A stretch of DNA of 64,000 bases from Microbulbifer elongatus (GTDB lineage Bacteria > Pseudomonadota > Gammaproteobacteria > Pseudomonadales > Cellvibrionaceae), in NCBI RefSeq assembly GCF_021165935.1, contig NZ_CP088953.1, positions 2,589,501 to 2,653,500 of the forward strand. Reading direction: 5' to 3'. This document shows, piece by piece, positions 42,487 through 64,000 of this stretch. Within the stretch, counting starts at the first letter, position 1, and each line of letters opens with the position of its first letter. The notes beneath the pieces are model-generated. The model was not told the origin of the DNA. It ran no database searches and saw only the letters and a list, made by a program, of their open reading frames with translations. Made by a program: the position numbers and the translations under genes.

Positions 42487-42971
42487 GTCATGCTGGACGA
42501 GGTCCGGCATCCAGAGAATCGGAGTACTGGATCCCGGGACAAGCCCGGGATGACGAAGCGGGTATACCCGTCATGCCGGACTGGATCCGGCATCCAGCGA
42601 ACCGGAGTACTGGATCCCGGGACAAGCCCGGGATGACGAAGCGGGTATACCCGTCATGCCGGACTGGATCCGGCATCCAGCGAACCGGAGTACTGGATCC
42701 CGGGACAAGCCCGGGATGACGAAGCGGGTATACCCGTCATGCCGGTCTGGATCCGGCATCCAGTGAACCGAAGTACTGGATCCCGGGACAAGCCCGGGAT
42801 GACGAAGCGGGTATACCCGTCATGCCGGACTGGATCCGGCATCCAGCGAACCGGAGTACTGGATCCCGGGACAAGCCCGGGATGACGAAGCGGGTATACC
42901 CGTCATGCCGGACTGGATCCGGCATCCAGAGAATCGGAGTACTGGATCCTGGGACAAGCTCGGGATGACGA
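42487..42971. repeat. Six-copy 83-bp tandem repeat of paired palindromes
   Basis: Units begin at 42487, 42570, 42653, 42736, 42819 and 42902 (exact 83-base spacing; the last lacks its tail). Each unit holds two different inverted repeats: GTCATGCCGG...CCGGCATCCAG and CTGGATCCCGGG...CCCGGGATGAC, then GAAGCGGGTATACCC. The four middle copies are nearly identical; the outer ones diverge slightly. It fills the lolE to lyase spacer. Open frames of 62 codons inside it repeat with the unit and are not genes. Confidence 0.95.
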
Positions 42972-42999
42972 GAACGCCCCCGTGGCCGGGGGCACTTTA
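42972..42999 (-). terminator. GC hairpin after the first alginate lyase gene
   Basis: GCCCCC / GGGGGC stem with loop GTGGCC directly downstream of the lyase stop (reading the minus strand). The T tract beyond it is weak (GTTCT), so a terminator is likely but not certain. Confidence 0.55.
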
Positions 43000-43000
43000 G

Positions 43001-45748
43001 TTACTGATGATCCACCCAAAAATCGTAAACAACCACTTCACCGTAGTTGTCCGGATGATCGGTGTAGTCACCTTCTTCATCAGGGTTACTCTGGGTGTAG
43101 TTGCCAATCTTGAAGTAGGCTTCTCCGTAGTCCAGATCCATCACATAATCGTTGGAACCGTCTTTTACAAGATACTGGCTCGCATTACCTGACAGGAATG
43201 CTTCATTCAGATTGCCATCTTCGCTGTAATAGACATAGTGCTTCCCATCTACAACCTCAAAGATCACCTCGTGGCGGGTGCCGAGTTTGTAGTCGTCCTT
43301 GATGGTGACATTACTTCTCAGTTTTCCGCCATTGAAGCTGAGGAAAAGATGCTCGTCTTCCAGACGTACGACCAGCGCATCGTCGATACCCTCGTCTTTA
43401 TTGCCGTGAATCTGCGTGGCAACCAGCTCATCCTTCACGATTGGCAGATGCGTAATAGCCTGGTCGACATAGACAATGTGCTGGCCATCGGTGGTCCAGT
43501 AAATATCTTTGCTACCATCGGCCACACGCTCCCGGAGTTCTGAGCGAATGTTGTCCGAGTTGGGCGTAGTACCGTTATTGCTGCGGATCGGTGCGCGGAA
43601 CACCATGCCGTCGCCGGTCTCGTTCACAAAGAAGTACTCATTGTTGGACTCACCACACAGTGTCTTGTCTTCTTCTCCATCCGGGTAGGTAATCTTCCAT
43701 TGATCACAATTTTCCATCAGGTCAGACGGAATGGACGCAGAGCCGGAAGAGCCACCGCTGCTGCCGCCGGAAGAACTGCCGGAAGAGCTGCTCGAGGAAC
43801 CACCGGAAGAGCTGCTGGACGAACTGCCGCCAGAGCTGGAGCCGGAATCATTGTCTCCGTTGTGTGAAACGTCCAGGTTGTAGAAAGAGACCTGTGCGTA
43901 GTCGTCGCTGTCACCACCGTTATTCTGGTTGTAATTACCGGCTTTAAAATAGAACCAGTCATCGTTGTATTCTTCTGCCCAGAATACGGTTTGACGCGCC
44001 CAGGTACCGTCGGACTTGGTCACGGTAACCGTCATCTCACGGCCTTCCACATTGACCTCGTAGCCAAATTTCTCACCCAGGGCGATACCGTCTTCCACTG
44101 GCTCAACGGTAGATGTCAGGCCGTACTCGTCGGTACCGGAATCACCAAACAGGGGAATGAATACTTCGGTATCGGAGTCTTCATACGCCATGTACACCCA
44201 GCCTTTGGTATGGCCCGGAAGCTTGCGGTAGTAGAGCTTGAATGGCTCGTGATCGGACGCGTGAATCTGGCCGACAATCACACGGCCCACACGCCACTCA
44301 GAGCCGGAGTCGTAGGTATCGGAAACGCGGTCCACCGACACGGTGGCTTTCATATTGCCATCCACTGCACCTGCGGCATTGCGGTCTGAGCTGGAAGCGG
44401 TGGAGATCACCCAGTTATTACCCAGGCTGGTCGTGCCCGCGCTTTCGTTCAGCATTTCGCGCAACTCGGTGCGCGAGTACGAAGAGTTGGATGTAGAGCC
44501 GCCGTTGTTCGGACACTGGAATACCATGGCACCAGTATCACGGTCGGTGTAGAACTCATCGTCACTGACTTGGGGCGGGAACTTTTCGTCCGCATCTGGA
44601 TAGGTGATTTTCCAGGTGCTGAGATCAAAGTTTTCATCCGGGTCCGCAGACGGATCGAGATTGGCCAACGGCAGAGTGCCATCGGTGCCGTACACGAGGC
44701 AGCCGACCGTTACACTGTCGCCGGTGCTTGACGTATCACAATCGGAAGAGCCGCCACTGCTGCTGCCGCCACTACTGCTGCTTCCGCTGCTGCTACCACC
44801 ACCGCTGCTACTGCTGCCACCGTCCACCGGGTCGGTGTGGCCGTTGTCTTCACTGACCCGAATTTCGGACAGAGAATTCCAGGCGCTGCTGCTGTTCCCG
44901 TAGCCGATATAGCGCACGTAGCGCGCTTCGGTTTCAAACAGCGAAAAACTTTCCCAGGAGGAAGTGTCGCCACTGCTTACCGCTCCGGACAGAACAGTTT
45001 CCCAGGCAGACATGTCTTCGCTGGTCTGGATATCGAATGAGAAACTGCGTTCGTCACCTTTATGAAAAGCGATGTCCACGCTACCTACCACCTGGCTTGC
45101 GCCGAGGTCCAGTTGCAGCCATTGGCCACTCCCTTCCGCGGACCAGCGGGTATCGAGGTCATCATCCAGTACATTGGCAGCGACGTTTTCCCCTTCATCA
45201 TCACTTGCTGTAGCGACAATCTCAGGTACGCAGGCAGTACAGCCCGGATCTTCAATTTCCTCACCCGGGTCATCAGAACCGCTGCCACCGGTGGTGAGAA
45301 TGTCGACTTCGCTGATACTGTTCCAGTCGTTGGCGGAATTGCCGTAACCAACAATCCGCACATAGCGCGCGTAGGAGTCGGCAACTTCGACACCTTGCAG
45401 TTCGTCAGAGCTGTAAGGCTGTTCGTCGTCGTACACGGTTTTCCAGTTGCTTGCATCAAGAGAGGTCTGGACTTTCAGGGTATTTGTACGCTCATCGCCT
45501 TTGAAAAAGGCCATTTCCAGCGAGTCAACGGTGTAGTACTTGCCCAGATCATACTGGATCCACTCACCTTCACCTTCGGCTGACCAGCGTGTGGATAGGT
45601 TATTGTCGAGCGTATTTTCGGGCTTGTTCCCGTCATGGCTCGAGGCAGTAACGCCTACTGGTTCTACGATCTGGCTCATGGCTGCTTGTGAAGCAAAAAC
45701 CAGAACCGCTGTTGCCAATTTTGTTGGCAACCATTTTCGCGCGTTCAT
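43001..45748 (-). CDS. Secreted alginate lyase, CBM32-CBM32-PL7-PL7 (paralog A)
   Basis: 915 residues; AAGGGAA before ATG. Signal peptide about 1-25. Two F5/8-type-C (CBM32) domains at about 28-152 and 172-302, each with DNNLSTRWSAEG-like and ARYVRIVGYGNS motifs. A Ser/Gly linker (about 310-336), PL7 domain 1 (about 375-630) with RTELRE (426-431), GQIHAS (493-498) and FYFKAGNYNQ; a second polyserine linker (about 635-672); PL7 domain 2 (about 675-915) with RSELRE (735-740), TQIHGN (778-783) and AYFKIGNYTQ. Both catalytic domains keep the Arg/Gln/His/Tyr positions of PL7, which cleaves alginate by beta-elimination. Its near twin lies 482 bases upstream. Probably an endolyase; substrate block preference (M or G) is not readable here. 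Confidence 0.94.
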   Translation of the reverse strand: MNARKWLPTKLATAVLVFASQAAMSQIVEPVGVTASSHDGNKPENTLDNNLSTRWSAEGEGEWIQYDLGKYYTVDSLEMAFFKGDERTNTLKVQTSLDASNWKTVYDDEQPYSSDELQGVEVADSYARYVRIVGYGNSANDWNSISEVDILTTGGSGSDDPGEEIEDPGCTACVPEIVATASDDEGENVAANVLDDDLDTRWSAEGSGQWLQLDLGASQVVGSVDIAFHKGDERSFSFDIQTSEDMSAWETVLSGAVSSGDTSSWESFSLFETEARYVRYIGYGNSSSAWNSLSEIRVSEDNGHTDPVDGGSSSSGGGSSSGSSSSGGSSSGGSSDCDTSSTGDSVTVGCLVYGTDGTLPLANLDPSADPDENFDLSTWKITYPDADEKFPPQVSDDEFYTDRDTGAMVFQCPNNGGSTSNSSYSRTELREMLNESAGTTSLGNNWVISTASSSDRNAAGAVDGNMKATVSVDRVSDTYDSGSEWRVGRVIVGQIHASDHEPFKLYYRKLPGHTKGWVYMAYEDSDTEVFIPLFGDSGTDEYGLTSTVEPVEDGIALGEKFGYEVNVEGREMTVTVTKSDGTWARQTVFWAEEYNDDWFYFKAGNYNQNNGGDSDDYAQVSFYNLDVSHNGDNDSGSSSGGSSSSSSSGGSSSSSSGSSSGGSSGGSSGSASIPSDLMENCDQWKITYPDGEEDKTLCGESNNEYFFVNETGDGMVFRAPIRSNNGTTPNSDNIRSELRERVADGSKDIYWTTDGQHIVYVDQAITHLPIVKDELVATQIHGNKDEGIDDALVVRLEDEHLFLSFNGGKLRSNVTIKDDYKLGTRHEVIFEVVDGKHYVYYSEDGNLNEAFLSGNASQYLVKDGSNDYVMDLDYGEAYFKIGNYTQSNPDEEGDYTDHPDNYGEVVVYDFWVDHQ

Positions 45749-45842
45749 TTTTGATTCCCTTTGGGTTTTTTAGCGCGCACAGTCCCACCGATGAACGCTC
45801 AGGTTCACCTATGAAATGTGACGCGGTTGTTTCTTTGAGAAA

Positions 45843-45884
45843 TTTTTACAAACTGCGAAACCACATCTGTGGTTTTTGTAAAAA
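45843..45884 (-). promoter_or_regulatory. Leader hairpin of lyase A
   Basis: Outer stem TTTTTACAA (45843-45851) with TTGTAAAAA (45876-45884), bulge ACTGCG, inner stem AAACCAC (45858-45864) with GTGGTTT (45869-45875). It lies about 40-80 bases into the predicted transcript and has a counterpart at 49024-49065. Confidence 0.6.
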
Positions 45885-45930
45885 CGATTAAGTCAGCACA
45901 GGATGGATTCGAGTGACTTAATCGCTGGCT

Positions 45931-45960
45931 ACATTAGTGAAGTGAAAAAACCTTCGTCAA
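45931..45960 (-). promoter_or_regulatory. Sigma-70 promoter of lyase A
   Basis: On the minus strand TTGACG (-35, 45955-45960), 18-base spacer, TAATGT (-10, 45931-45936). The same elements with the same spacing precede the paralog. Confidence 0.7.
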
Positions 45961-45983
45961 TGAAAATTCTGACAAATTCTCTG

Positions 45984-45999
45984 AATTGGTTGACCAGTT
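45984..45999. promoter_or_regulatory. Operator-like palindrome upstream of lyase A
   Basis: AATTGGTTGACCAGTT contains the palindrome TGGT-TG-ACCA, a FadR/GntR-type shape, 23 bases upstream of the -35 box. An identical 16-mer sits at the same place upstream of lyase B. The rest of the 482-base spacer shows no gene. Confidence 0.65.
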
Positions 46000-46196
46000 G
46001 GTAAGAAAGGTGACTCGCGTCTAATAAATGGTTTTTTTCGAGGAAATACATCAAATATTAATTGGGGGGTTAGTACCAAGTGGGGGCGTGGGACTGGCGG
46101 TTCACAGGTAGAGACAAAAGGGCGGGGGCTCAAAAGATTGGGACGTAGATCATAAAACCGGAGAGTAGGGGGATCCCGGGCCGGGCCCGGGATCGA

Positions 46197-46227
46197 GAAA
46201 AGTGCCCTCGCTACGCGAGGGACACTT
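46197..46227 (-). terminator. Intrinsic terminator of lyase B
   Basis: On the minus strand GTGTCCCTCGC-GTA-GCGAGGGCAC followed by TTTTC. A dispersed repeat core (GATCCCGGGCCGGGCCCGGGATC split at 46171-46193) lies just beyond it. Confidence 0.8.
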
Positions 46228-46230
46228 CAG

Positions 46231-48915
46231 TTACTGGTGGTCAATCCAGTAATCATAAACAACGACTTCACCGTAGTTGTCCGGATGGTCCGCCAGGTCT
46301 CCTTCGCGATCAGCATTACTCTGCGTGTAATTACCAATCTTGAAGTAGGCGTCTCCGTAACTACGGTCCATCACGTAGTCGTTGGAGCCGTCACGCACCA
46401 GATACTGATCCGCATTGCCGGACAGGAAGGCGTTGGCAAGGTTGCCGTCTTCGCTGTAGTAGGCGTAGTGCCGGCCGTCCACTACTTCGAAAATAATTTC
46501 GTGAGTAGTGCCCAGCTGGTAGCCGGTCTTGATGGTGAGGTCATCCCGCAGCTTGCCGCCGTTGAAGCTCAGGAACAGGTGATCGCCTTCCAGGCGCAGA
46601 ACCATGGCATCATCAATGCCTTCACTTTTGTTGCCGTGAATCTGCGTTGCTACCAGGTGATCTTTTACCATGGGCAGGTGGGTAATCGCCTGCTTCACGT
46701 ACACGATGTGTTGGCCATCGGTGGTCCAGTAAACATCCTTGCTGCCGTCCGGCTCACGCTCACGCAGCTCGGAACGGATATAGCTGGAGTTTGGCGTGGT
46801 ACCGTTGTCGGTGCGAATTGGTGCATAAAACACCATGCCATCGCCCGCATCGTTTACGTAGAAGTACTCGTTATTGGCCTCGCCACACAGGGTTTTATCT
46901 TCTTCACCGGTGGGGTAGGTGATCTTCCACTGGTTGCAGTTTTCCATCAGGTCTGAAGGTACACTGCCGGAACCGGAAGAAGAACCACCTGAAGAGCCGC
47001 CGGAAGAACTACCCGAAGAGCTGCTGGAAGAACCGCCGCCAGAACTGGAGCTGGAAGAGCCGCTATCGCCGTCGTGGGTAACCTCAAAGTTGTAGAAGGA
47101 AACTTGGGCGTAATCGTCGCTGTCGCCACCATTGTTCTGGTTGTAGGAACCGGCTTTAAAGTAGAACCAGTCATCGTTGTACTCTTCAGCCCAGAAAATG
47201 GTCTGACGTGCCCAGGTGCCATCGGCCTTGGTCACTGTCACGGTCATTTCACGGCCTTCGACGTTGACTTCGTAGCCCCACTTCTCGCCGAGCTCGATAC
47301 CGTCTTCTACCGGTTCAACGGTAGAGGTCAGGCCGTACTCGTTGGTGTCGGAATCACCAAACAGCGGAATGAAGATCTCGGTATCGGAATCCTCATAGGC
47401 CATATAGACCCAGCCTTTGGTATGTCCTGGCAGTTTACGATAGTAGACCTTGAACGGCTCGTTATCAGACGCGTGAATCTGTCCTACAACAACGCGGCCA
47501 ACGCGCCATTCAGAACCAGAATCGTAGGTGTCGGATACACGATCCACAGAAATGGTGGCTTTCATATTGCCATTCACGCCCGCCGCTGCGCTCTGGTCAG
47601 AGCTGGAGGCAGTGGAAATGACCCAGTTGTTGCCGAGGCTGGTGGTACCCGCACTCTCGTTCAGCATCTCGCGCAGTTCGCTGCGGGAGTAGGACGAGTT
47701 GGAGGTGGAGCCACCGGTGTTGGGGCACTGGAACACCATGGCGCCTGTGGCGCTGTCGGTGTAGAACTCATTCGCGCTGACCTGCGGAGGATATTCTTCG
47801 CTGGCATCCGGATAAGTGATTTTCCATTTGCTCAGATCAAAGTTTTCATCGGGGTCCGCGGAAGGATCGAGATTGGCCATTGGCAGGGTGCCACCGGTAC
47901 CGTACTCCAGGCAGCCAACGGTCACGCTGCTGCCGGTGCTGGAAGTGTCGCAGTTCCCGGAGCCGCCACTGCTGCTGCCACCACTGCTACTACTACTGCT
48001 GCTTCCACCACCGATCGGATCGGTGTTGCCGTTTTCTTCACTGACGCTCATTTCGGTCAGCGAGTTCCAGGAGTTGGAGCTGTTGCCGTAGCCAACATAG
48101 CGCACGTAGCGCGCTTCGGTCTCAAATAGGGAGAAGTTTTCCTGCGCGGTAGTGTTACCGCTGCTGACACCACCGTACAGTACGGTCTCCCAAGCGGAGC
48201 CGTCATCACTGGTCTGGATGTCGAACGAGGAAGTGCGCTGATCGCCCTTGTAGAACGCGATGTTCGCGCTGCCTACAACCTGCGATTGCCCGAGATCCAG
48301 CTGCAGCCATTGGCCACTGCCGTCGGCGGACCAGCGGGTGCCGAGATCATCATCCAGAACATTTTCCGGGCCATTGCCATCGTCGCTGCTTGCGGTCGCG
48401 ACCACAGCTGGTTCACAGGCCGGACAGCCAGGATCGCCGGGGTCACCGGGATCATCAGACGAAGTAGTAATGTCGACTTCACTGATGCTGTTCCAGTCGT
48501 TGGAGGAGTTGCCGTAGCCCACAATACGCACGTAGCGCGCGCTGGTGTCGGTCACATCAAACGTCTGCAGGTTGGCGGTGCTGGAAGGCTGGTCTCCGGA
48601 GAATACGGTCTGCCAACTGCTGCCGTCGGTGGACGTCTGAATGTCCAGGGTCGCGGTTCTCTGGTCGCCTTTGTGCAGGGCGATTTCCAGTGCCTCGACC
48701 GTGTAACTGGTTCCAAGATCGTAGCGGATCCATTGTCCATCACCCTGGGCAGACCAGCGCGTGGATAGGTTATTGTCCAGAGTATTTTCAGGTGTGTTGC
48801 CATCATCGCTAGACGCAGTGACACCCACAGGATCAGCGGCAAAACACACTGTCGCTTGCGAAGCAAGCAACAGCGCAGCCGCCAATTTCATAGGCGAGTA
48901 TTTCTGCACATTCAT
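46231..48915 (-). CDS. Secreted alginate lyase, CBM32-CBM32-PL7-PL7 (paralog B)
   Basis: 894 residues from the ATG at 48915 (AAGGAA 9 bases upstream); the frame is open to 48954 but that would put 13 residues before the signal peptide. Same domain order as paralog A: signal peptide (to ATVCFA), two CBM32 domains joined by a Pro/Gly/Asp linker with a C-P-A-C pair, polyserine linker, PL7-1 (RSELREML, GQIHAS, FYFKAGSYNQ), polyserine linker, PL7-2 (RSELRERE, TQIHGN, AYFKIGNYTQ). The two proteins align end to end by eye with most residues identical, so this is a gene duplication. The polyserine linkers are typical of polysaccharide degraders of the Saccharophagus/Microbulbifer type. Confidence 0.94.
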   Translation of the reverse strand: MNVQKYSPMKLAAALLLASQATVCFAADPVGVTASSDDGNTPENTLDNNLSTRWSAQGDGQWIRYDLGTSYTVEALEIALHKGDQRTATLDIQTSTDGSSWQTVFSGDQPSSTANLQTFDVTDTSARYVRIVGYGNSSNDWNSISEVDITTSSDDPGDPGDPGCPACEPAVVATASSDDGNGPENVLDDDLGTRWSADGSGQWLQLDLGQSQVVGSANIAFYKGDQRTSSFDIQTSDDGSAWETVLYGGVSSGNTTAQENFSLFETEARYVRYVGYGNSSNSWNSLTEMSVSEENGNTDPIGGGSSSSSSSGGSSSGGSGNCDTSSTGSSVTVGCLEYGTGGTLPMANLDPSADPDENFDLSKWKITYPDASEEYPPQVSANEFYTDSATGAMVFQCPNTGGSTSNSSYSRSELREMLNESAGTTSLGNNWVISTASSSDQSAAAGVNGNMKATISVDRVSDTYDSGSEWRVGRVVVGQIHASDNEPFKVYYRKLPGHTKGWVYMAYEDSDTEIFIPLFGDSDTNEYGLTSTVEPVEDGIELGEKWGYEVNVEGREMTVTVTKADGTWARQTIFWAEEYNDDWFYFKAGSYNQNNGGDSDDYAQVSFYNFEVTHDGDSGSSSSSSGGGSSSSSSGSSSGGSSGGSSSGSGSVPSDLMENCNQWKITYPTGEEDKTLCGEANNEYFYVNDAGDGMVFYAPIRTDNGTTPNSSYIRSELREREPDGSKDVYWTTDGQHIVYVKQAITHLPMVKDHLVATQIHGNKSEGIDDAMVLRLEGDHLFLSFNGGKLRDDLTIKTGYQLGTTHEIIFEVVDGRHYAYYSEDGNLANAFLSGNADQYLVRDGSNDYVMDRSYGDAYFKIGNYTQSNADREGDLADHPDNYGEVVVYDYWIDHQ

Positions 48916-49023
48916 TACATAATTCCTTGCATTATTGTTTTTCACAGCGCGCACGAACCCACCGACAAGCTTTTGGAGGAAGCTCGCCTAGAGAGTGCCG
49001 CGCGATGAAATTCATTAAAGAAA

Positions 49024-49065
49024 TTATTACAAACTACGAAACCACGAATGTGGTCATTGCAATAA
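49024..49065 (-). promoter_or_regulatory. Leader hairpin of lyase B
   Basis: Outer stem TTATTACAA (49024-49032) with TTGCAATAA (49057-49065), inner stem ACCAC (49041-49045) with GTGGT (49050-49054). Same geometry as the element of lyase A, with one compensatory base-pair change in the outer stem and one A-C mismatch. Confidence 0.55.
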
Positions 49066-49111
49066 CAATCAAGCCAATAATTATTATGTGGATAAGGCTT
49101 GATCGATATTT

Positions 49112-49141
49112 ACATTACTGAAACGAAAAAACGTTCGTCAA
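49112..49141 (-). promoter_or_regulatory. Sigma-70 promoter of lyase B
   Basis: Minus strand TTGACG (49136-49141), 18-base spacer, TAATGT (49112-49117), the same arrangement as for lyase A. Confidence 0.7.
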
Positions 49142-49164
49142 TTAAAATCCGGAAAAATTGAAAC

Positions 49165-49180
49165 AATTGGTTGACCAGTT
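49165..49180. promoter_or_regulatory. Operator-like palindrome upstream of lyase B
   Basis: AATTGGTTGACCAGTT, identical to the copy at 45984-45999, 23 bases upstream of the -35 box. Between it and the DUF2062 gene (about 190 bases) I see nothing further. Confidence 0.65.
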
Positions 49181-51984: not shown

Positions 51985-51996
51985 TTCATCAACCCA

Positions 51997-52380
51997 GCGT
52001 CATCCCGGACTCGATCCGGGATCCAGCCAGAGGTTGTCGACAGGCACCGAACTGGATACCGGCCTACGCCGGCATGACGAACAATAAACCCAGCGTCATC
52101 CCGGGCTCGATCCGGGATCCAGCCAGAGGTTGTCTACAGGCACCGAACTGGATACCGGCATACGCCGGCATGACGAACAACAAACCCAGCGTCATCCCGG
52201 GCTCGATCCGGGATCCAGCCAGAGGTCGTTGACAGGCACCGAAATGGATACCGGCATACGCCGGCATGACGAACAACAAACCCAGCGTCATCCCGGGCTC
52301 GACCCGGGATCCAGTCAGAGGTCGTCGACAGGCACCGAAATGGATACCGGCATACGCTGGCATGACGAACCAAAAACGCA
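51997..52380. repeat. Four-copy 96-bp tandem repeat between prpB and prpC
   Basis: Units start at 51999, 52095, 52191 and 52287 (exact 96-base spacing). Each holds GTCATCCCGG...CCGGGATCCAG, a spacer AGAGGTTGTCGACAGGCACC (varying in three bases), and GGATACCGGCATACGCCGG-CATGACG. The array fills the 416-base spacer inside the prp operon and ends about 20 bases before prpC. The frame that runs through it into prpC is an artefact of the repeat. Confidence 0.95.
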
Positions 52381-56414: not shown

Positions 56415-56562
56415 ATCGTCATCCCGGACTCGATCCGGGATCCAGAGATAACCTCGTCATGCCGGACTTGATACGGCATCCAGCTAGTGCCTCGTCATCC
56501 CGGCGCAGGCCGGGATCCAGCTCCGAGGCCCTGGATCCCGGATCAAGTCCGGGATGACGCAA
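56415..56562. repeat. Dispersed palindromic repeats between acnD and prpF
   Basis: Four partial palindromes in a row: GTCATCCCGGACTCGATCCG, GTCATGCCGGACTTGATACG, GTCATCCCGGCGCAGGCCGG and CTGGATCCCGGATCAAGTCC, each with its CAG or GATGACG end. They stop 16 bases before the prpF ATG, leaving little room for a normal ribosome-binding site. Confidence 0.88.
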
Positions 56563-56577
56563 TAAGTGATTAAACCC

Positions 56578-57771
56578 ATGACTCATACTCCCCAAAACTT
56601 CCCCCCACAAATCCGGGTCCCCGCCACCTACATGCGAGGCGGCACCAGCAAAGGCGTCTTCTTCCGCCTACAAGACCTCCCAGAACCCGCCCAGGTCCCA
56701 GGCCAAGCCCGAGACAACCTGCTACTCCGAGTAATCGGCAGCCCCGACCCCTACGGCAAACAAACCGACGGCATGGGCGGCGCCACCTCCAGCACCAGCA
56801 AAACGGTGATCGTCTCCAAGAGCGAACAGCCCGAACACGACGTCGATTACCTGTTCGGCCAGGTCGCCATCGACAAACCGTTCGTAGACTGGTCCGGCAA
56901 CTGCGGCAACCTAACCGCCGCCGTCGGCGCCTTCGCCATCAACAGCGGTTTTGTCGATGCAGCGCGTGTTCCAGAGAACGGCATCTGCACCGTGCGCATC
57001 TGGCAGGCCAATATCAAAAAAACCATCATTGCCCAGGTCCCCATCACCAATGGGGAAGTGCAGGAGACCGGTGATTTCGAACTGGACGGCGTCACTTTCC
57101 CCGCGGCAGAGGTCCAGATCGAATTTATGGATCCGGCCGACGGGGAAGGAGCCATGTTCCCCACCGGCAACCTGGTGGACGACCTGGAAGTACCAGGCGT
57201 CGGTACGCTAAAGGCCACCATGATCAATGCCGGCATCCCCACCATCTTCATCAATGCCGCGGATATCGGTTATACCGGCAGCGAACTGCAGGAAGCCATC
57301 AACGGTGACGACAAGGCCCTCGCCATGTTCGAAACCATCCGCGCCCACGGGGCGGTGAAGATGGGGCTGATCGCAAAGGTGGAAGAGGCCGCCGCTCGCC
57401 AGCATACGCCCAAAGTTGCTTTCGTAGCCGCCCCAAAGGGCTATATCGCCTCTAGTGGTAAAGAAGTAGGATCAGGAAGTATCGATCTGCTGGTGCGCGC
57501 CCTGTCCATGGGCAAACTGCACCACGCCATGATGGGCACCGCTGCGGTGGCCATCGGCACCGCAGCCGCCATTCCCGGCACCCTGGTCAATCTGGCCGCT
57601 GGGGGAGGGGAGCGCAATGCCGTTACCTTCGGCCATCCGTCTGGCACCCTGCGGGTTGGTGCGGAGGTGGAAATTGCCAATGGGCAGTGGACTGCTACCA
57701 AAGCCATTATGAGTCGCAGTGCGCGGGTTTTGATGGAGGGTTGGGTGCGGGTGCCCGGGAACACTTTTTAG
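56578..57771 (+). CDS. prpF: PrpF, AcnD-accessory isomerase
   Basis: 397 residues from the ATG at 56578; a GTG at 56566 is the alternative, and neither has a clear Shine-Dalgarno because repeats run to 56562. PrpF motifs: VPATYMRGGTSKGVFF (catalytic Lys in TSKG), GSPDPYGKQTDGMGGATSSTSK, DWSGNCGNLTAAVG (Cys). The family isomerises the trans/cis methylaconitate double bond made by AcnD. Its last third exists again as a frameshifted copy at 62890-63364. Confidence 0.96.
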   Translation: MTHTPQNFPPQIRVPATYMRGGTSKGVFFRLQDLPEPAQVPGQARDNLLLRVIGSPDPYGKQTDGMGGATSSTSKTVIVSKSEQPEHDVDYLFGQVAIDKPFVDWSGNCGNLTAAVGAFAINSGFVDAARVPENGICTVRIWQANIKKTIIAQVPITNGEVQETGDFELDGVTFPAAEVQIEFMDPADGEGAMFPTGNLVDDLEVPGVGTLKATMINAGIPTIFINAADIGYTGSELQEAINGDDKALAMFETIRAHGAVKMGLIAKVEEAAARQHTPKVAFVAAPKGYIASSGKEVGSGSIDLLVRALSMGKLHHAMMGTAAVAIGTAAAIPGTLVNLAAGGGERNAVTFGHPSGTLRVGAEVEIANGQWTATKAIMSRSARVLMEGWVRVPGNTF

Positions 57772-57831
57772 TACTGGTCCAGGAGGCTCCGCAAAACGGT
57801 GCACGCTGTTTGAACAAGCACTGAAATTCGG

Positions 57832-57865
57832 AAAAGCGAGTCCAAAATTGGGCGCGCTTTTTTTG
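57832..57865 (+). terminator. Imperfect intrinsic terminator after prpF
   Basis: AAAAGCG (57832-57838) ... CGCTTTT (57855-57861) with inner CCAA/TTGG, then a T run. Very similar in sequence to the terminators at 60584 and 63416. Confidence 0.75.
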
Positions 57866-58432
57866 TGCCAAATTTCTAATTATTCCTTAGCTATAAAGGG
57901 CTATGTGCACACTCAATTCGACAAAATCTGGCGTGAAAATCACCCGGCTAAAGATAAGTGATTGACTCAATTCGTATTTGAAATACGATCGAATACGGCT
58001 CTACGAAAAATCTAAACACCTTGTAGAGCATGATATGTGAATGTATTAATGATTAGTTTGGCGAGTATTTCGGTGGTAGTTCGAGGTGTATGGCAGGGGC
58101 CTCTTTGCCCTTGCATCGAACAATCAAAAAACCTAAAAGCGTAAGGAGAGATCGCGGATTTACAATGTTCAGATAGAGCGAGCTACCAGTCGGGCTCGCT
58201 TTTTTGTTTCTCCAGTCTACTCCGCGAAACTTGAATAATTTGATATTGGCTGCTGTTCGATCAGAAGATGCCAGCGCTTAGAAGATCAAATAGTAAAAAT
58301 ACAGCTGATCTTACTCACTGTGATTAATAGACCCGTTCTTTGCAATATTGAAAAGGTGCTCTCGTGATGGGTGGTACGAGGTGAGATCGGCCGCTAGTAA
58401 TAGACTCATAGTAATTTTCTCTGGGGGATATA
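57866..58432. other. AT-rich gene-free region with an orphan terminator
   Basis: No open frame here looks like a gene. At 58079-58120 GTTCGA and TCGAAC can close a stem around a GGCA/TGCC helix, and at 58177-58205 AGCGAGC / GCTCGCT plus five T forms a good terminator with no gene ending before it. A small RNA or an eroded cassette is possible. Confidence 0.4.
58177..58205 (+). terminator. Orphan intrinsic terminator
   Basis: Perfect 7-bp stem AGCGAGC (58177-58183) / GCTCGCT (58194-58200), loop of 10, then TTTTT. The nearest upstream gene, prpF, already has its own terminator 340 bases earlier. Confidence 0.8.
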
Positions 58433-60154
58433 GTGATCAATATTAGAATATGGGCATCCAAGGTTGTGGTGGGGTTACTTTTTTGTTTCTGGGTTGGCGA
58501 AATTTTTGCGCAGATTCCACCCAATTCTCGGCGCTTTCAGATCAATGATTATTACGGCCCCGACGGAAGCGGTGGATACGAACTCTATCGAGCGCATGGG
58601 TTTGCCTTACAGAGCGCAGACAATATAAAAACGAAAATATTTCTACTGCCATTGGTTGAGGCGCGAACCAACGCGATTGAATTCTACGACGAGGATGGCT
58701 TTCTATATGACCCGGCCGATAGCCCGAGGCAGCTCGCACGGTCCATTAGTATTCCGTTGGCGTTGCACCAGAAACTACCAAGTAAGGAACATACGCCAGC
58801 GTTTGTTAGCGCACTAAGCGACGGAATCTCTGTGACCAATTATATGTACCCGAGTGCGAAAGCACCTAACGGTATGCCTCTGATTTACCCGCCTGCGCAA
58901 GGCCTGGCTCCCCAGTTGCATCAAGCAAACATGGAAAGAGACAGACTCTTCGCCGAACAACAAAAAATGATCGAGCAGTTTGAGAACTATGCACCGGAGC
59001 TGGTAAACCTCTTGGAGCTAGAAATTTCCGTGCGAATTGGGTCTGAGCAAATTGCCGTTGTGTCGTACCCACATAGCTTTATAACGATGGGTGACACGCT
59101 GTCTGTCGCGGTTGAAAACCCCACTATGTATGAGCAGAACAGAATCCGCCAAGGCAAAATGGACGTGCTGGTTTCCTACAAATTCCGTGATGCTAAGACC
59201 TCCACGATTTCAGCGCGCTTCGATGCGAAGCGGATTGTCAATAGATTTCTTCGCGAGGTTCAACAATCTTCGGTGAAAAAGAAGTCGTCTGGTTGGCAGT
59301 TTCTCGGATTTGGATCCCGACGCAGTACCCTAAAAACAGCCTTCAATCAGAGTGTGGATAGTCAGTTTAAGGGCTCAACATCCGAGTCGACTACGATTGA
59401 AATGTTTGATGCTGACGACAGTATGATTGAACAGTTCGAGGCGGACTTCTTCCCCGAGCTAAGTCGCCAATCTGTGATAGAGAACCATCTCGAAGCGGCC
59501 CGTATTGCTGCGGCGTCTGGAAATGAAAAGCTGCGCGATCTGCACCTGAAGTACGCCGATGCGGTTGAAAATAGTAACCCCGATCTGGAAGTGGATGTGG
59601 CGGATGCCGTGGCTTCTCTCTCCGCCGGTGACTACGCAGGGTTTTTAGCAAAAGGAGTTCGTTGGGGTGACCACCGGGCCACCGGTAATAGTTCGTTCCG
59701 TCGAGTGATAAATGAGCAAGCGGCGATTGACAAAAACAAAGCCTGGAGTCAAAGCCGGACGGTGTCGGTCCAACGCTCATTGACGATGAAGGCTGATCGC
59801 CTGAATACTTGGGAGCAGTGGCCTGACATGGGCATTTGTGGAGTGGTCTCGTATAACTATCAGGTGCCGATCGAACGCTGGAATGGATGGCAATGGGTGC
59901 AGAAGGTAGGCGTCATGCCCACATGTGTAACTGAGAATGGTCCAGCTCGCTCAGCAGGTATTATTCCTGGCATGATCGTGGCTGATTTTGATGGTGAGCT
60001 GTTCACCTCATCGTTGGAGGCGGAGGACTTTCTACGTCGCTATAGACCCGGCGATCGTGTTACGGCAAGAGTGGTGGATTTCCCGCCGGGTCGACCACCG
60101 CAGTACACAGATTACGACATCCAATTATCTGCAGGGAAACCAATCAAACTATGA
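58433..60154 (+). CDS. Exported protein of unknown function with C-terminal PDZ-like domain
   Basis: 573 residues from a GTG with TGGGGGA upstream. Signal peptide about 1-27 (VVVGLLFCFWVGEIFAQ). I do not recognise the main body (about 30-480); it contains a charged helical stretch (HQANMERDRLFAEQQKMIEQ, about 164-183), a predicted beta-rich part, and DADDSMIEQFEADFFPEL. The last ~75 residues look like a PDZ domain: GVMPTCVTENGPARSAGIIP then GMIVADFDGEL, with the usual GI-x-PGD-like turn. No catalytic triad is evident. Its stop overlaps the start of the next gene (ATGA), so the two are made together. AT-richer than the prp genes, consistent with transfer. Confidence 0.72.
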   Translation: MINIRIWASKVVVGLLFCFWVGEIFAQIPPNSRRFQINDYYGPDGSGGYELYRAHGFALQSADNIKTKIFLLPLVEARTNAIEFYDEDGFLYDPADSPRQLARSISIPLALHQKLPSKEHTPAFVSALSDGISVTNYMYPSAKAPNGMPLIYPPAQGLAPQLHQANMERDRLFAEQQKMIEQFENYAPELVNLLELEISVRIGSEQIAVVSYPHSFITMGDTLSVAVENPTMYEQNRIRQGKMDVLVSYKFRDAKTSTISARFDAKRIVNRFLREVQQSSVKKKSSGWQFLGFGSRRSTLKTAFNQSVDSQFKGSTSESTTIEMFDADDSMIEQFEADFFPELSRQSVIENHLEAARIAAASGNEKLRDLHLKYADAVENSNPDLEVDVADAVASLSAGDYAGFLAKGVRWGDHRATGNSSFRRVINEQAAIDKNKAWSQSRTVSVQRSLTMKADRLNTWEQWPDMGICGVVSYNYQVPIERWNGWQWVQKVGVMPTCVTENGPARSAGIIPGMIVADFDGELFTSSLEAEDFLRRYRPGDRVTARVVDFPPGRPPQYTDYDIQLSAGKPIKL

Positions 60155-60447
60155 ATACCTTACGGATTACCGTTCTTACCATTTGCGCTTCGATGTCCTC
60201 TTACGCAGCCACAGCCCAGGAGGTACCTCGGTGTCACGTGTATGTGGATCGCGCAGGATGGGTGGCGAGTGACGTTTCAAAAGTAGTCAAAGTGCGCTAC
60301 GACAGTGCCCGTCTGTGTGATACGACACTCAAACACTATGTCTGTTACACCTATTTTGAGAGTCGAGAGGGCTGTAATAAGAATGACGCTAGCCTGGTCG
60401 ACCTTTTCTTGAAGGATGCACGCGCTGCAGGAGAAGTCATTGATTGA
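60151..60447 (+). CDS. Small exported four-cysteine protein, coupled to the PDZ-like protein
   Basis: 98 residues starting in the ATGA overlap with the preceding stop. Signal peptide about 1-23 (TVLTICASMSSYAATAQ), then about 75 residues with four cysteines (VPRCHVY, ARLCDTT, HYVCYTY, EGCNKND), which could form two disulfides in the periplasm or outside. No known family recognised. Translational coupling suggests a complex or common pathway with the larger exported protein. Confidence 0.65.
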   Translation: MNTLRITVLTICASMSSYAATAQEVPRCHVYVDRAGWVASDVSKVVKVRYDSARLCDTTLKHYVCYTYFESREGCNKNDASLVDLFLKDARAAGEVID

Positions 60448-60948
60448 TGCATTGACGGTTACGCGAGTTCTCTGGCTCTGAGTAGGATATCCGTAAGTGG
60501 GTGCGTACAGGTGCCCGGTGACTGCATTTGGTTTGGACGCCAATATTAGAGGTCGGTACAAAATAGCGAATTTTCACAAGGCGAAAAAGCGAGCCTCATT
60601 TGAAGCTCGCTTTTCTATATGCGTCAGTCGCTGATTAAATCTTAGCCGAATTACATGTTGAAACCACGATGACGGATTACTTAATCACGACTTGAGTGGG
60701 CAAACCTGTGTCATTGACTTAAAACATAATTCAAATACTATCTAGATCAGAAAAATTTAACGGGCATATAGGAAATGCCCGTCGAAACATGGCGTCCCAT
60801 TGAGTATGGATAGAAGGCTCCGTCCTTTTTGGCAATCAATTGCCGGCGCTGATATGCCCCAGCGCTCTGTAATCGAGTTGGATATGCAAATATCAATCAA
60901 GGACGTTCGCTTACCTACCGCCCTAACGCACCATGCGCAGAGGGCGTT
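60448..60948. other. Gene-free spacer with terminator and promoter region of the NERD-helicase
   Basis: 501 bases, AT-rich. It holds the terminator at 60584-60614 and presumably the promoter of the following gene; no open frame with a ribosome site is seen. Confidence 0.5.
60584..60614 (+). terminator. Intrinsic terminator after the exported pair
   Basis: AAAAAGCGAGC (60584-60594) with GCTCGCTTTT (60605-60614), 10-base loop. Nearly identical to the terminator after the prpF remnant at 63416. Confidence 0.88.
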
Positions 60949-62832
60949 ATGGCTAAACTGATTCCATCCCTCAGTTCCTGTCTGTCCAGAATGACCTCCG
61001 GCGAGAAACGCTTTGCTCGGCGCCTCGAAGCACTGCTGGAAGATGATTACCTCTGTTGGTTTGATATTCCCTTAGGGAGAAAGCGTCGCTACCCGGATTT
61101 TATAATTCTGCATCCCGCTAGAGGTATTCTTTTTTTAGAGGTCAAGGATTGGAAGGCATCCAGCATCAAACGTGTAAGCCATGCTGAAGTTGATCTTGAA
61201 ACCTCCAGCGGTCGTAAAACGGTAAGTAATCCGATTGAACAGGCCAGACAGTGCAGTTATCAGGTTTTGCAGGTACTTGAGCGCGACCCTCAGTTAAAGC
61301 AGCTGATGGGAAAATACAAGGGGAAACTATGTTTTCCCTACGGGTATGGTGCAGTATTTTCCAATATCACTCGCAATCAAATTGAAAAAGGTATCCCAGA
61401 AGAATATCGCCAAAAGCTGCTACCTGGGCACCTATTAATCTGCCAGGATGAAATGTCCGAAAGCGTTATGGCTGACGAGTTCCAGGAGCGGCTATGGGGA
61501 ATGTTCAATTATAAGTTTGGCAATAAACTGACATTACCTCAGATAGATAGAGTTCGCTGGCATTTATTTCCTGAAATCCGTATTGAGGCGGCCCAGGATG
61601 ATTTGTTTGGTGCGGAGGAGGCCGGTGAAGGTATGCCCGAGGCGTCGTTGGCCGAAAACATGCCAGACATTGTGAAGATCATGGATATCCAGCAAGAGCA
61701 ACTGGCCCGCAGTTTGGGGGATGGTCATCGCGTTGTTCACGGTGTTGCTGGTTCTGGCAAAACACTGATTTTGGGGTATAGATGCCTCTATCTAGCCGAG
61801 GCGTTAAATAAGCCTATCTTGGTACTTTGTTTCAACATTACCTTGGCTGCTCGCTTACGTAGCTTTATCGCCGAAAAGGGGATAAACAATAAAGTCCAAG
61901 TTTATCATTTTCACGATTGGTGTGGCGAGCAGCTGCGAGCTTACCACGTTGATCTGATCGATATAGATGCTCCGGTTTGGGAGCGTCAAGTGCTTTCCGT
62001 GATTAAAGCCGTTGAGAAGGGGCGTATTCCCAAAGGCCAGTACGGGGCGGTGTTGATTGATGAAGGGCACGATTTTGAAGCTGAGTGGTTGACTTTGATT
62101 TCTCAAATGGTTGACCCAGAGACGGATTCACTTCTTTTGCTGTATGACGATGCGCAGTCTATCTACAAACGGAAATCAAGCCTTGGGTTTAGCTTGTCGA
62201 GCGTGGGAATCAAGGCCCAGGGGCGGACCACGATACTTCGATTGAATTACCGTAATACCCGAGAAATTCTTGCCTTCGCGTATCAATTCGCCAAGGACTA
62301 CTTTTCTCAAAATTCTGATTCCGAAATCCCTCTCGTTGAGCCTGAGGCAGCGGGCAAGAGTGGTGTTGAACCTTATGTAAAATGCGTTGAAACGCTGGAG
62401 GAGGAAATTGAGTATGCGGTACGCTGTTTGAAGGTCTGGAATAGTAAAGGGAAGGCTTGGAAGGATATGGCAGTGCTGTACCCGGGGGGCACTGCTGGGA
62501 AGCGGATGGCTGCCGCCTTGAAAAGGGAGCGCATACCGTGCGCATGGCTCGCCTCCAGCGAGTATAAAAAGCGCTATGACCCAAATTCTGAAAGTGTCTG
62601 CATCATGCCGATTCCGAGTAGTAAGGGGCTGGAGTTCGATACTGTAATTATTCTCGATTCCAGCTATCGATCCAGCCACGAGGGACATGTTGATTTGGCT
62701 GGTGATGTGCGTCGAATGTATGTTGGTTTGACACGAGCGCAGGAGCATTTACTGGTGAGCCACCACCGACGGAATGAATTGAGCGCAATGCTGTCTAGCC
62801 GAGATCGGGTCGGGAATGAGTCATTTGTGTAA
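60949..62832 (+). CDS. NERD-domain nuclease fused to a superfamily-1 (UvrD-like) helicase
   Basis: 627 residues; GAGGG 6 bases before ATG. The N-terminal NERD domain (about 15-130) has the PD-ExK-type residues Asp50 (RRYPDFII), Glu64 and Lys66 (LEVKDWK). The helicase part has Walker A GVAGSGKT (265-272), motif II LIDEGHDF (DEGH at 371-374), motif III LLYDDAQSIY, motif IV LRLNYRNT, motif V PSSKGLEFDTVII and motif VI RRMYVGLTRAQEHLLV. NERD-helicase fusions occur in accessory regions and several anti-phage systems use such combinations; here it stands alone between an orphan module and a prpF remnant. A role in DNA repair is the alternative. No membrane or export signals. Confidence 0.9.
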   Translation: MAKLIPSLSSCLSRMTSGEKRFARRLEALLEDDYLCWFDIPLGRKRRYPDFIILHPARGILFLEVKDWKASSIKRVSHAEVDLETSSGRKTVSNPIEQARQCSYQVLQVLERDPQLKQLMGKYKGKLCFPYGYGAVFSNITRNQIEKGIPEEYRQKLLPGHLLICQDEMSESVMADEFQERLWGMFNYKFGNKLTLPQIDRVRWHLFPEIRIEAAQDDLFGAEEAGEGMPEASLAENMPDIVKIMDIQQEQLARSLGDGHRVVHGVAGSGKTLILGYRCLYLAEALNKPILVLCFNITLAARLRSFIAEKGINNKVQVYHFHDWCGEQLRAYHVDLIDIDAPVWERQVLSVIKAVEKGRIPKGQYGAVLIDEGHDFEAEWLTLISQMVDPETDSLLLLYDDAQSIYKRKSSLGFSLSSVGIKAQGRTTILRLNYRNTREILAFAYQFAKDYFSQNSDSEIPLVEPEAAGKSGVEPYVKCVETLEEEIEYAVRCLKVWNSKGKAWKDMAVLYPGGTAGKRMAAALKRERIPCAWLASSEYKKRYDPNSESVCIMPIPSSKGLEFDTVIILDSSYRSSHEGHVDLAGDVRRMYVGLTRAQEHLLVSHHRRNELSAMLSSRDRVGNESFV

Positions 62833-62889
62833 GGTCGATTTGACTGGGTGAATCAGGTGCCGAAATAGTGACCTGGCCCCATCTATTCA

Positions 62890-63364
62890 CCTGCACCGAG
62901 CTGCAGGAAGCCGTCAACGGTGACGACAAGGCGCTCGCCATGTTCGAGACCATCCGCGCCCACGGCGCGGTGAAGATGGGGCGATCGCAAAGGTGGAAGA
63001 GGCAGCCGCCCGCCAGCATACCCCCAAGGTTGCGTTCGTCGCGCCACCCAAGGGCTATACGGCCTCCAGTGGCAAACATGTGGACTCGGGCGATATCCAC
63101 CTACTGGTGCGCGCCCTCTCCATGGGCAAACTGCACCACGCCATGAAGGGCACCGCTGCCGCGATTCCCGGCACCCTGGTCAATCTGGCCGCTGGGGGCG
63201 GGGAGCGCAATGCGGTGACTTTCGGGCAACCGTCTGGCACCTTGAGGGTGGGTGCGGAAGCGGAAATTGGCAACGGGCAGTGGACTGCGACTAAGGCCAT
63301 TATGAGCCGTAGTGCGCGGATTCGGATGGAAGGGTGGGTGCGGGTGCCCGGAGGCAGCTTCTAG
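62890..63364 (+). pseudogene. prpF: prpF 3'-end remnant (duplicate, frameshifted)
   Basis: From ELQEAVNGDDKALAMFETIR to the end this repeats the last ~165 residues of prpF (compare 57285-57771). Three differences are visible: no start or 5' two thirds; a one-base deletion after GTGAAGATGGGGC that shifts the frame near 62982; and a 21-base deletion (VAIGTAA missing) between two GGCACCGC repeats. Other substitutions are scattered, so the copy is not recent. The first part is read in the frame of 62868 and the second in the frame of 62993. It cannot encode an active PrpF. Confidence 0.9.
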
Positions 63365-63415
63365 CAAGGTGCCGTGAATAGCGGCAGACACTGTTCAAGC
63401 TGACTTCGGAAGTCG

Positions 63416-63448
63416 AAAAAGCGAGCTTCAATTGAGGCTCGCTTTTTT
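63416..63448 (+). terminator. Intrinsic terminator after the prpF remnant
   Basis: AAAAAGCGAGC (63416-63426) with GCTCGCTTTTTT (63437-63448). The sequence between the remnant stop and this hairpin also resembles the prpF downstream region, so the duplication includes the terminator. Confidence 0.88.
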
Positions 63449-63779
63449 ATGCCCCTGAACCAGGGCATGTGAGTATACCAGGGCATATCTCCTCGAATTA
63501 TACGGTTAGCCTCGGATATAATCTGATATGGTCGCGCTTAATGTTAATAATATGCATAATTATATAAGTGCGCTTTCGAGTGGTTGCCAGAATTCAACGT
63601 TTCATATATCGATTTGAACGGTCTGTCCTTTAACATGTGGTGAATAATCCATAATCATAGTGGATGATTTTTACTCTCGACATGTATACCAACAGGTTGC
63701 GGTGGGAACGATAAATATTTTCCGTTTAGTCCCGGTCCGGCCGGGTATCATTTTCAACACGTTCGGATAGTGTAAATTG
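63449..63779. other. AT-rich upstream region of the TIR-like gene
   Basis: 330 bases without a gene. CCCGG-TCCGG-CCGGG at 63731-63745 can form a short hairpin. Base composition is clearly lower in GC than the core genes. Confidence 0.4.
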
Positions 63780-63788
63780 GTGGGTCCA

Positions 63789-64000
63789 GTGAAAGAAAAA
63801 ATAAAGAATGTATTTGTTAGCCATCACCACAAAGATGATGCAAGTGTAGATGGGCTTGCATCAATAGTAAGTGGGAAAAACTACCAATTAAGGAATAGCT
63901 CGATTAGGGTCAAACCTGAAAACCAGAAACGTGTTGAACAAAAAAAGGTCAGTGATCGAACCATTGCCAGGCTGCTGCGAATGAAAATGAGGTGGGCAAG
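63789..64000 (+). CDS. TIR-like (DUF1863/MTH538-type) protein, N-terminal part, cut by the window end
   Basis: About 70 residues are visible from the GTG at 63789 (GTG 63780 or TTG 63777 are alternatives; a stop at 63768 closes the frame upstream). The sequence KNVFVSHHHKDDASVDGLASI begins with the strand and His/Asp cluster of TIR-like folds (xVFVSH-x-xDD), continues with LRNSSIRVKPENQKR and ends at RLLRMKMRWA at the edge, the pattern of the DUF1863/MTH538 family to which Thoeris ThsB proteins belong. It is probably an NAD-related or cyclic-ADP-ribose-signalling immune component, but the catalytic region and partner genes lie outside the window. Confidence 0.72.
   Translation, partial: MKEKIKNVFVSHHHKDDASVDGLASIVSGKNYQLRNSSIRVKPENQKRVEQKKVSDRTIARLLRMKMRWA

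Follow-up and report, generated by a model that had tools for sequence, protein, structure and literature searches.

How did the 3' end of prpF come to stand twice in the same orientation in the genome of Microbulbifer elongatus, with accessory genes between the two copies? The stretch of DNA analyzed here (the window; 64,000 nt) lies in a genome of one 4.2-Mb contig (G000). A reading made from the sequence alone had proposed that foreign DNA carrying a homologous prpF end from another strain entered at this point, or that prpF alleles recombined, and that prpF is a likely hotspot. We compared the locus with its counterparts across the genus and in samples from outside it.

Duplicated 3' end of prpF

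An aconitase-family gene (called acnD in the sequence-only reading) is followed by prpF, upstream of whose start there is also an in-frame GTG at 56566. The features of the locus are as follows.

56581-57771, + strand: intact prpF, the anchor gene (PF04303, E 1.6e-172)
57830-57863, + strand: terminator-like hairpin downstream of prpF
58172-58205, + strand: second similar hairpin, upstream of module A, with no prpF sequence recognized alongside
58433-60447, + strand: module A, encoding a 573-aa protein (58433-60154) and a 98-aa protein (60151-60447)
60499-60616, + strand: prpF scar 1, the final ~33 nt of a prpF and then a terminator (60583-60616)
60949-62832, + strand: module B, a 627-aa NERD and UvrD-like helicase (PADLOC candidate family C3a187)
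62856-62888, - strand: repeat-end-like motif on the right edge of module B, directly adjoining scar 2
62889-63364, + strand: prpF scar 2, the 3' part of prpF from nt 694, with 1-nt and 21-nt deletions
63415-63448, + strand: terminator-like hairpin downstream of scar 2
63777-64000, + strand: start of module C, a ThsB-like TIR protein, running on beyond the window

Alignment of the two stretches confirmed that the prpF end and its hairpin are present twice in direct orientation. Positions 57274-57771 match 62889-63364 in three ungapped blocks with 93, 81, and 86% identity, at a start-to-start offset of 5593-5615 nt (~5.6 kb), and a gapped alignment gives 83.3% identity over 485 positions (E 1e-149). 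The duplicated portion, first described as the last third of prpF, amounts to ~41% of the gene plus the terminator. The distal copy, which PF04303 also matches (E 5.1e-38), is truncated and carries the one-base frameshift and the 21-base deletion that had been reported for it (alignment columns 119 and 295-315, respectively). It falls inside the Microbulbifer prpF clade, which rules out a prpF paralogue or an unrelated PrpF-family gene as its source.

The hairpins behind the intact gene and behind scar 2 are alike, and many of the 47 Microbulbifer loci have one similar to that at 57830-57863 after prpF. The exact stem, AAAGCGAGC-N(4-14)-GCTCGCTTT, occurs at four sites in the 4.2-Mb genome, two of them within this interval. 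We considered and rejected the hairpin as an integron-like recombination site, given its presence after prpF in many relatives, its travel with the scar, and the absence of a tyrosine integrase at the locus in the 10 genomes searched.

Modules behind prpF in the window genome

The DNA between the two copies had been taken for a single 5-kb insertion of AT-rich cargo. The interval itself stands, but it holds two modules with scar 1 between them, and it was filled in at least two steps. Scar 1 is recognized by the prpF-end profile (E 6.3e-6) and has 82.7% identity over 196 nt to the prpF end and downstream DNA of genome G039. Modules A and B (GC contents of 48.5% and 48.0%) are GC poorer than the window up to prpF (58.4%) but are not AT rich in an absolute sense; the GC content is 42.2% in module C and 64.9% in the scar 2 remnant. 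The two prpF copies do bracket cargo, but not all of it, because the cargo runs on ~7 kb past the window to a right end at ~70.6-70.9 kb on the window scale. Module C, mostly beyond the window, encodes ThsB-like TIR, Nmad2, TIR-SLOG, MazG_C, UDG-like, and CoiA_N proteins.

The module B helicase matches its PADLOC candidate defense family with an E value of 8.5e-164. Neither module A protein has a Pfam or PADLOC match; the 573-aa protein is a candidate for a defense role. A plasmid or phage vehicle for the insert was discarded, as none of the plasmid or phage records spans 80% of it. Among the 10 of 54 plasmid matches that were listed, four fall on prpF, two on the NERD helicase, and four, without annotation, over the scar part, and both phage records match only over the scar part.

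Other repeats lie upstream of prpF in the window. Two neighboring 3-kb stretches (42944-45999 and 46171-49180) contain large paralogous ORFs on the minus strand and share ~74% identity, and an 83-nt tandem repeat (42487-42971) lies ahead of this pair. An imperfect palindromic repeat, GTCATCCCGGACT...ATCCGGGATCCAG, has clustered intergenic copies at 51988-52380 and 56417-56559.

A hypervariable locus across Microbulbifer

The prpF gene was found in 47 of 48 genus genomes, the remaining genome being 88% complete, and up to 20 kb downstream of it was collected from all 47. We called a locus closed when a gene from a cluster present at six or more loci ended the interval, which was the case for 41 of the 47; the c3 cluster (DUF998) was dropped as a fixed right flank because it occurs twice in some loci. 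The closed loci have a median interval of 6.2 kb and contain 240 ORFs, 186 of them on the prpF strand, and 171 of the 240 have a relative at no other locus. Only 0 to 3 ORFs are present in 12 closed loci, nine of which belong to one branch of the prpF tree. The cargo directly after prpF thus differs at most loci, as the proposed hotspot predicts, and relatives do not all carry the same cargo and remnant.

The cargo listing comprised 184 proteins of at least 110 aa from 34 of the 47 loci, of which 157 were scanned and 27 were left out. Among the matches listed, the PADLOC families include Gabija, Lamassu, Septu, SIR2, HerA, Nsn, and PD-T4-2, and the Pfam domains include restriction, Schlafen, TIR, and ABC-3C domains. 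When 10 cargo proteins were chosen, six matched PADLOC families at E values up to 1e-50, with GajA, LmuB, and ThsA among them, and the remaining four had no match. Variable defense genes between conserved genes, the hallmark of a core defense hotspot, are therefore found here in the 41 closed loci and their PADLOC matches, and we judge the DNA behind prpF to be an accessory hotspot enriched in antiphage defense genes.

prpF scars and their controls

A profile of the prpF end was used to survey the DNA downstream of prpF in the 47 loci (E < 1e-5). It gave 12 hits at nine loci: three in G035, two in G000, and one each in G007, G014, G015, G016, G023, G026, and G041. Every one of the 12 is in direct orientation, and 10 reach the gene end; the pieces in G015 and G041 are internal and lie 14 to 16 kb away, and the weaker matches immediately after prpF at these two loci are prpF's own terminator. 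An intact prpF stands ahead of the cargo at every scar-bearing locus. Left ends of the scars range from about nt 450 to nt 1160 of prpF, a spread of ~700 nt. At the other 38 loci, no scar was found at this threshold.

The bias toward the 3' end also appeared when 300-nt segments of prpF were sought downstream in the 47 Microbulbifer loci and in 78 of 80 named loci, the other two having too little downstream DNA. The last 300 nt have a downstream copy in 5/47 Microbulbifer and 4/78 named loci, the middle 300 nt in 5/47 and 0/78, and the first 300 nt in none of the 125. Short prpF-end scars outside Microbulbifer were seen in Marinobacter (L072 [12292] and L080 [12713]) and Alcanivorax (L106 and L122 [12446]), and an AbiEii-type protein is encoded between prpF and the scar in L122. 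A family sample gave no further 3' scar among 31 matching genomes outside the genus. An order sample, in which 59 of 115 genomes had any PrpF-family match, gave one, in G201, which we rejected as a new case because its coordinates are those of L072. Placed on the best prpF tree, the six longer scars require six changes, at least three of them forced by well-supported branches; six changes is what scattered labels give.

As a control, partial copies were sought for 1,590 genes in 127 sequences. Downstream 3'-partial copies gave 17 rows, seven at prpF and 10 for eight other genes (odds ratio = 8.5, P value = 1.7e-4 by a Fisher test, which is approximate because rows rather than genes were counted and some named records are also genomes of our set). 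The prpF gene of G035 is absent from these rows because an ORF of the opposite strand was picked there. The rows for other genes include cluster c11 four times, polB once, and three strays. Upstream 5'-partial copies gave 19 rows, two of which represent the prpF locus of G035 as read on the opposite strand. The copies of c11 (AstE/AspA-like) in G021, G025, G046, and G047 and that of polB in G039 all lie within 25 kb of prpF, and in G025, G046, and G047 the c11 copy lies at the same distance (714 nt), suggesting a single event common to the three. The process is thus not confined to prpF, although this gene accounts for the most rows (7 of 17).

Order and direction of the additions

Sister comparisons bear on the order in which modules arrived. 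G023 and G035 are close: stretches aligned around the locus have 91.6 to 96.2% identity, and 400-nt windows range from 80 to 99.5%. The layout in G023 is prpF, module, scar; in G035 it is prpF, module, scar 1, module, scar 2, and then the G023-type module with its scar. Scar 2 of G035 and the DNA downstream of it match the functional prpF end of G023 and its downstream DNA at 96.5% identity over 1,203 nt. The two intact genes share 89.3% identity, a value that alone is not decisive given the variation among windows. Over the last 107 to 108 nt, scar 2 has 94.4% identity to G023 prpF and 86.9% to the intact gene of its own genome, and the two intact genes share 84.1%. The 200 nt behind the G023 prpF end have 97.0% identity to the DNA behind G035 scar 2 and 67.2% in the other comparison, which is the level of shuffled sequences (mean of 68.4% in a like test). 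DNA that follows a working prpF in G023 now follows a scar in G035, indicating that a resident end was displaced and, for G035 against G023, that the displaced copy is the resident allele.

A second comparison concerns module B, which is directly downstream of prpF in G039 and stands behind module A and the 33-nt scar with its terminator in G000 and G026; the stretch of scar 1 and module B has 87.0% identity to G039 over 2,306 nt. Both comparisons show last-in-first-out stacking. A third module (c58-c59) comes first in G014 and is 8 kb off in G007, with prpF scars behind both whose left ends differ.

G000 and G026 have prpF, module A, and module B in common. In 500-nt windows, the modules are mostly 93 to 98% identical and prpF is 86 to 90% identical; the flanks have 78 to 95% identity at 36-56.5 kb, up to 85-98% at 71-74.5 kb, and 66 to 87% beyond 75 kb. 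The shared stretch stops at the first base of scar 2, past which G026 continues into DNA that resembles, by eye, the end of an IS3-type transposase gene. Either scar 2 and module C were lost in G026 or the block was acquired separately by G000 and G026.

The proposal of foreign DNA with a homologous prpF end gains support from scar 2 of the window, which is a Microbulbifer prpF allele different from the intact copy: a supported tree group (95/83) holds the scar and excludes the intact G000 gene. It also needs refining, in that the broken copy would be the displaced resident end and the intact end the incoming one, as G035 and G023 indicate. Scar 2 groups weakly with G018 (94/24), and we thus did not accept it as a proven resident allele in G000; we infer the same direction of displacement for the window's own scars.

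How the modules were added

The hotspot, the scars, and the 3'-end bias and direct orientation of the scars can be read directly from the genomes compared. To explain them, we think it probable that the defense-rich DNA behind prpF was built in part by successive one-sided homologous insertions that displaced the resident prpF 3' end. Donor DNA from another Microbulbifer would bring a gene module preceded by a prpF end, and the prpF part would pair and cross over with the resident gene, which would stay complete with wholly or partly donor sequence. The far end of the donor DNA, having no homology, would be joined illegitimately inside the 3' part of the resident prpF, and the resident stub, its terminator, and older cargo would be displaced downstream. 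Each round could leave one scar, with the newest module adjoining prpF and with prpF and its operon remaining intact. The joining step would be homology-facilitated illegitimate recombination, on which De Vries and Meier and Wackernagel reportedly worked, and the DNA may have entered by transformation, transduction, or conjugation.

The scars have the features of such joining, with a homologous intact anchor on one side and a right joint at variable, nonhomologous positions. Of 79 PF00589 (tyrosine integrase) matches in 10 genomes, none maps to the locus, and this absence, the variable left ends, and a right side that usually has the gene end and terminator are what one-sided insertion predicts. 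ComEC is present in all 48 genomes, yet also in 10 of 14 controls, and transposase domains occur among the cargo. Some observations count against the model. Random joining would not predict that, in the pairs G000/G026 and G014/G007, about the same module end meets a different partner; the pieces in G015 and G041, 2 of the 12, come from inside the gene rather than from its end; and 5'-partial upstream copies are generally as frequent as 3'-partial downstream ones (19 versus 17 rows). The many loci with no scar imply that clean double crossover or replacement, or decay, is probably commoner.

The alternative that fares best, which we regard as rather unlikely, is ordinary homologous recombination, by a single crossover of a circle or a double crossover of linear DNA, between prpF and scars already flanking a module, so that the scar serves as a ready-made right arm and the whole module is transferred together. 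The joint of module and scar common to G023 and the third scar of G035 would fit, as would the greater similarity of modules A and B between G000 and G026 compared with that of prpF or most of the surroundings. However, the first scar must then come from elsewhere, and its origin is left unexplained; the joint common to G023 and G035 may be plain inheritance, and the same module has different joints in G014 and G007.

Integrative elements whose site-specific recombinase targeted the prpF 3' end, with the integrase genes since lost, would account for cargo flanked by directly repeated gene 3' ends, an arrangement typical of such elements, and for the short scars of L080 and L122 starting within 2 to 3 nt of each other. 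We hold this to be improbable, given the lack of tyrosine-integrase matches at the locus in 10 genomes, the ~700-nt spread of scar left ends where a constant attachment core would be expected, and the partial 3' copies at c11 and polB.

The repeat-end motif that abuts scar 2 raises the question of whether it and its IS200-like (Y1) transposase drive joining or breakage. Its consensus, AATAAATGGGGTCAGATCAAC, has 35 of its 88 copies in the 48 genomes within 20 kb behind prpF, and it lies ahead of an IS200-like (Y1_Tnp) gene in the G010 hotspot. The G000 genome has just two copies (up to 3 mismatches), both in the hotspot; the positions listed for G000:C1 are 2658522 and 2660136. When relaxed to 15 bases, the motif matches 68 times in the loci, and 57 of these matches are outside ORFs of at least 100 aa. 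By eye, however, the motif is absent at the other scar joints listed, and it clusters at further places too, perhaps other hotspots; such a role for the motif seems less plausible again. Duplication of prpF within one genome followed by decay, which two direct copies in one genome might bring to mind, can be dismissed, since the tree group holding the G000 scar excludes the G000 intact copy and scar 2 of G035 is nearer to G023 than to its own intact gene.

Relation to known systems and significance

The one-sided insertions that we favor resemble a process described for type VI secretion system (T6SS) effectors of Vibrio cholerae, whose sequential displacement yields orphan immunity arrays and for which homology-facilitated illegitimate recombination was proposed (Kirchberger et al. 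2017, PMC5361080). Both would involve a homologous left anchor, an illegitimate right joint, an old gene end displaced downstream, and arrays formed by repetition. Unlike the arrays as presented in that paper, the prpF anchor belongs to core metabolism and lies apart from any secretion locus, its cargo is antiphage defense and other accessory genes, and its residue is a dead gene end instead of a useful immunity gene. For the core defense hotspots of Pseudomonas aeruginosa, transfer by recombination in the flanks was suggested, and that study leaves the construction of the loci open (Johnson et al. 2023, PMC10250203). These also have defense systems between fixed core genes with no single obvious mobilizer, whereas the prpF scars appear to record stepwise addition. 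Hotspots without integrases have been explained by homologous recombination at flanking genes in a double-crossover model (Oliveira et al. 2017, PMC5635113). The prpF locus likewise has no tyrosine-integrase match in 10 genomes and would recombine at a flanking core gene, but its scars point to one-sided additions with older cargo kept. The type of process, core defense hotspots without a single mobilizer, and recombination at flanking core genes are thus already known. Our literature search found no prpF hotspot and no prpF integration site with a genomic island, and as far as the literature was searched, the prpF hotspot in Microbulbifer and a scar record that orders the additions are new.

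In an integron, the newest cassette enters beside a fixed anchor and older cassettes move away. The newest prpF module is likewise next to the anchor, with older ones farther off; unlike an integron, the prpF locus has no tyrosine integrase among the matches above and no constant recombination site was seen there, its boundaries being pieces of the anchor gene. The integron parallel was drawn for the T6SS arrays too (PMC5361080).

We speculate, with considerable reserve, that the prpF tail may be an integrase-free stacking site, at which each stub and terminator would insulate the next module and provide a new homology arm, so that the cell's ordinary recombination alone could add defense modules flanked by prpF pieces, keep their order, and exchange them between species. 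That short scars also lie downstream of prpF in Marinobacter and Alcanivorax suggests that other genera share this process. Scars of an anchor gene make the number, the order, and, in favorable cases, the direction of additions readable from genomes, and the stacking process is open to test by transformation. For Microbulbifer, the DNA right behind prpF is a place to seek new defense genes.
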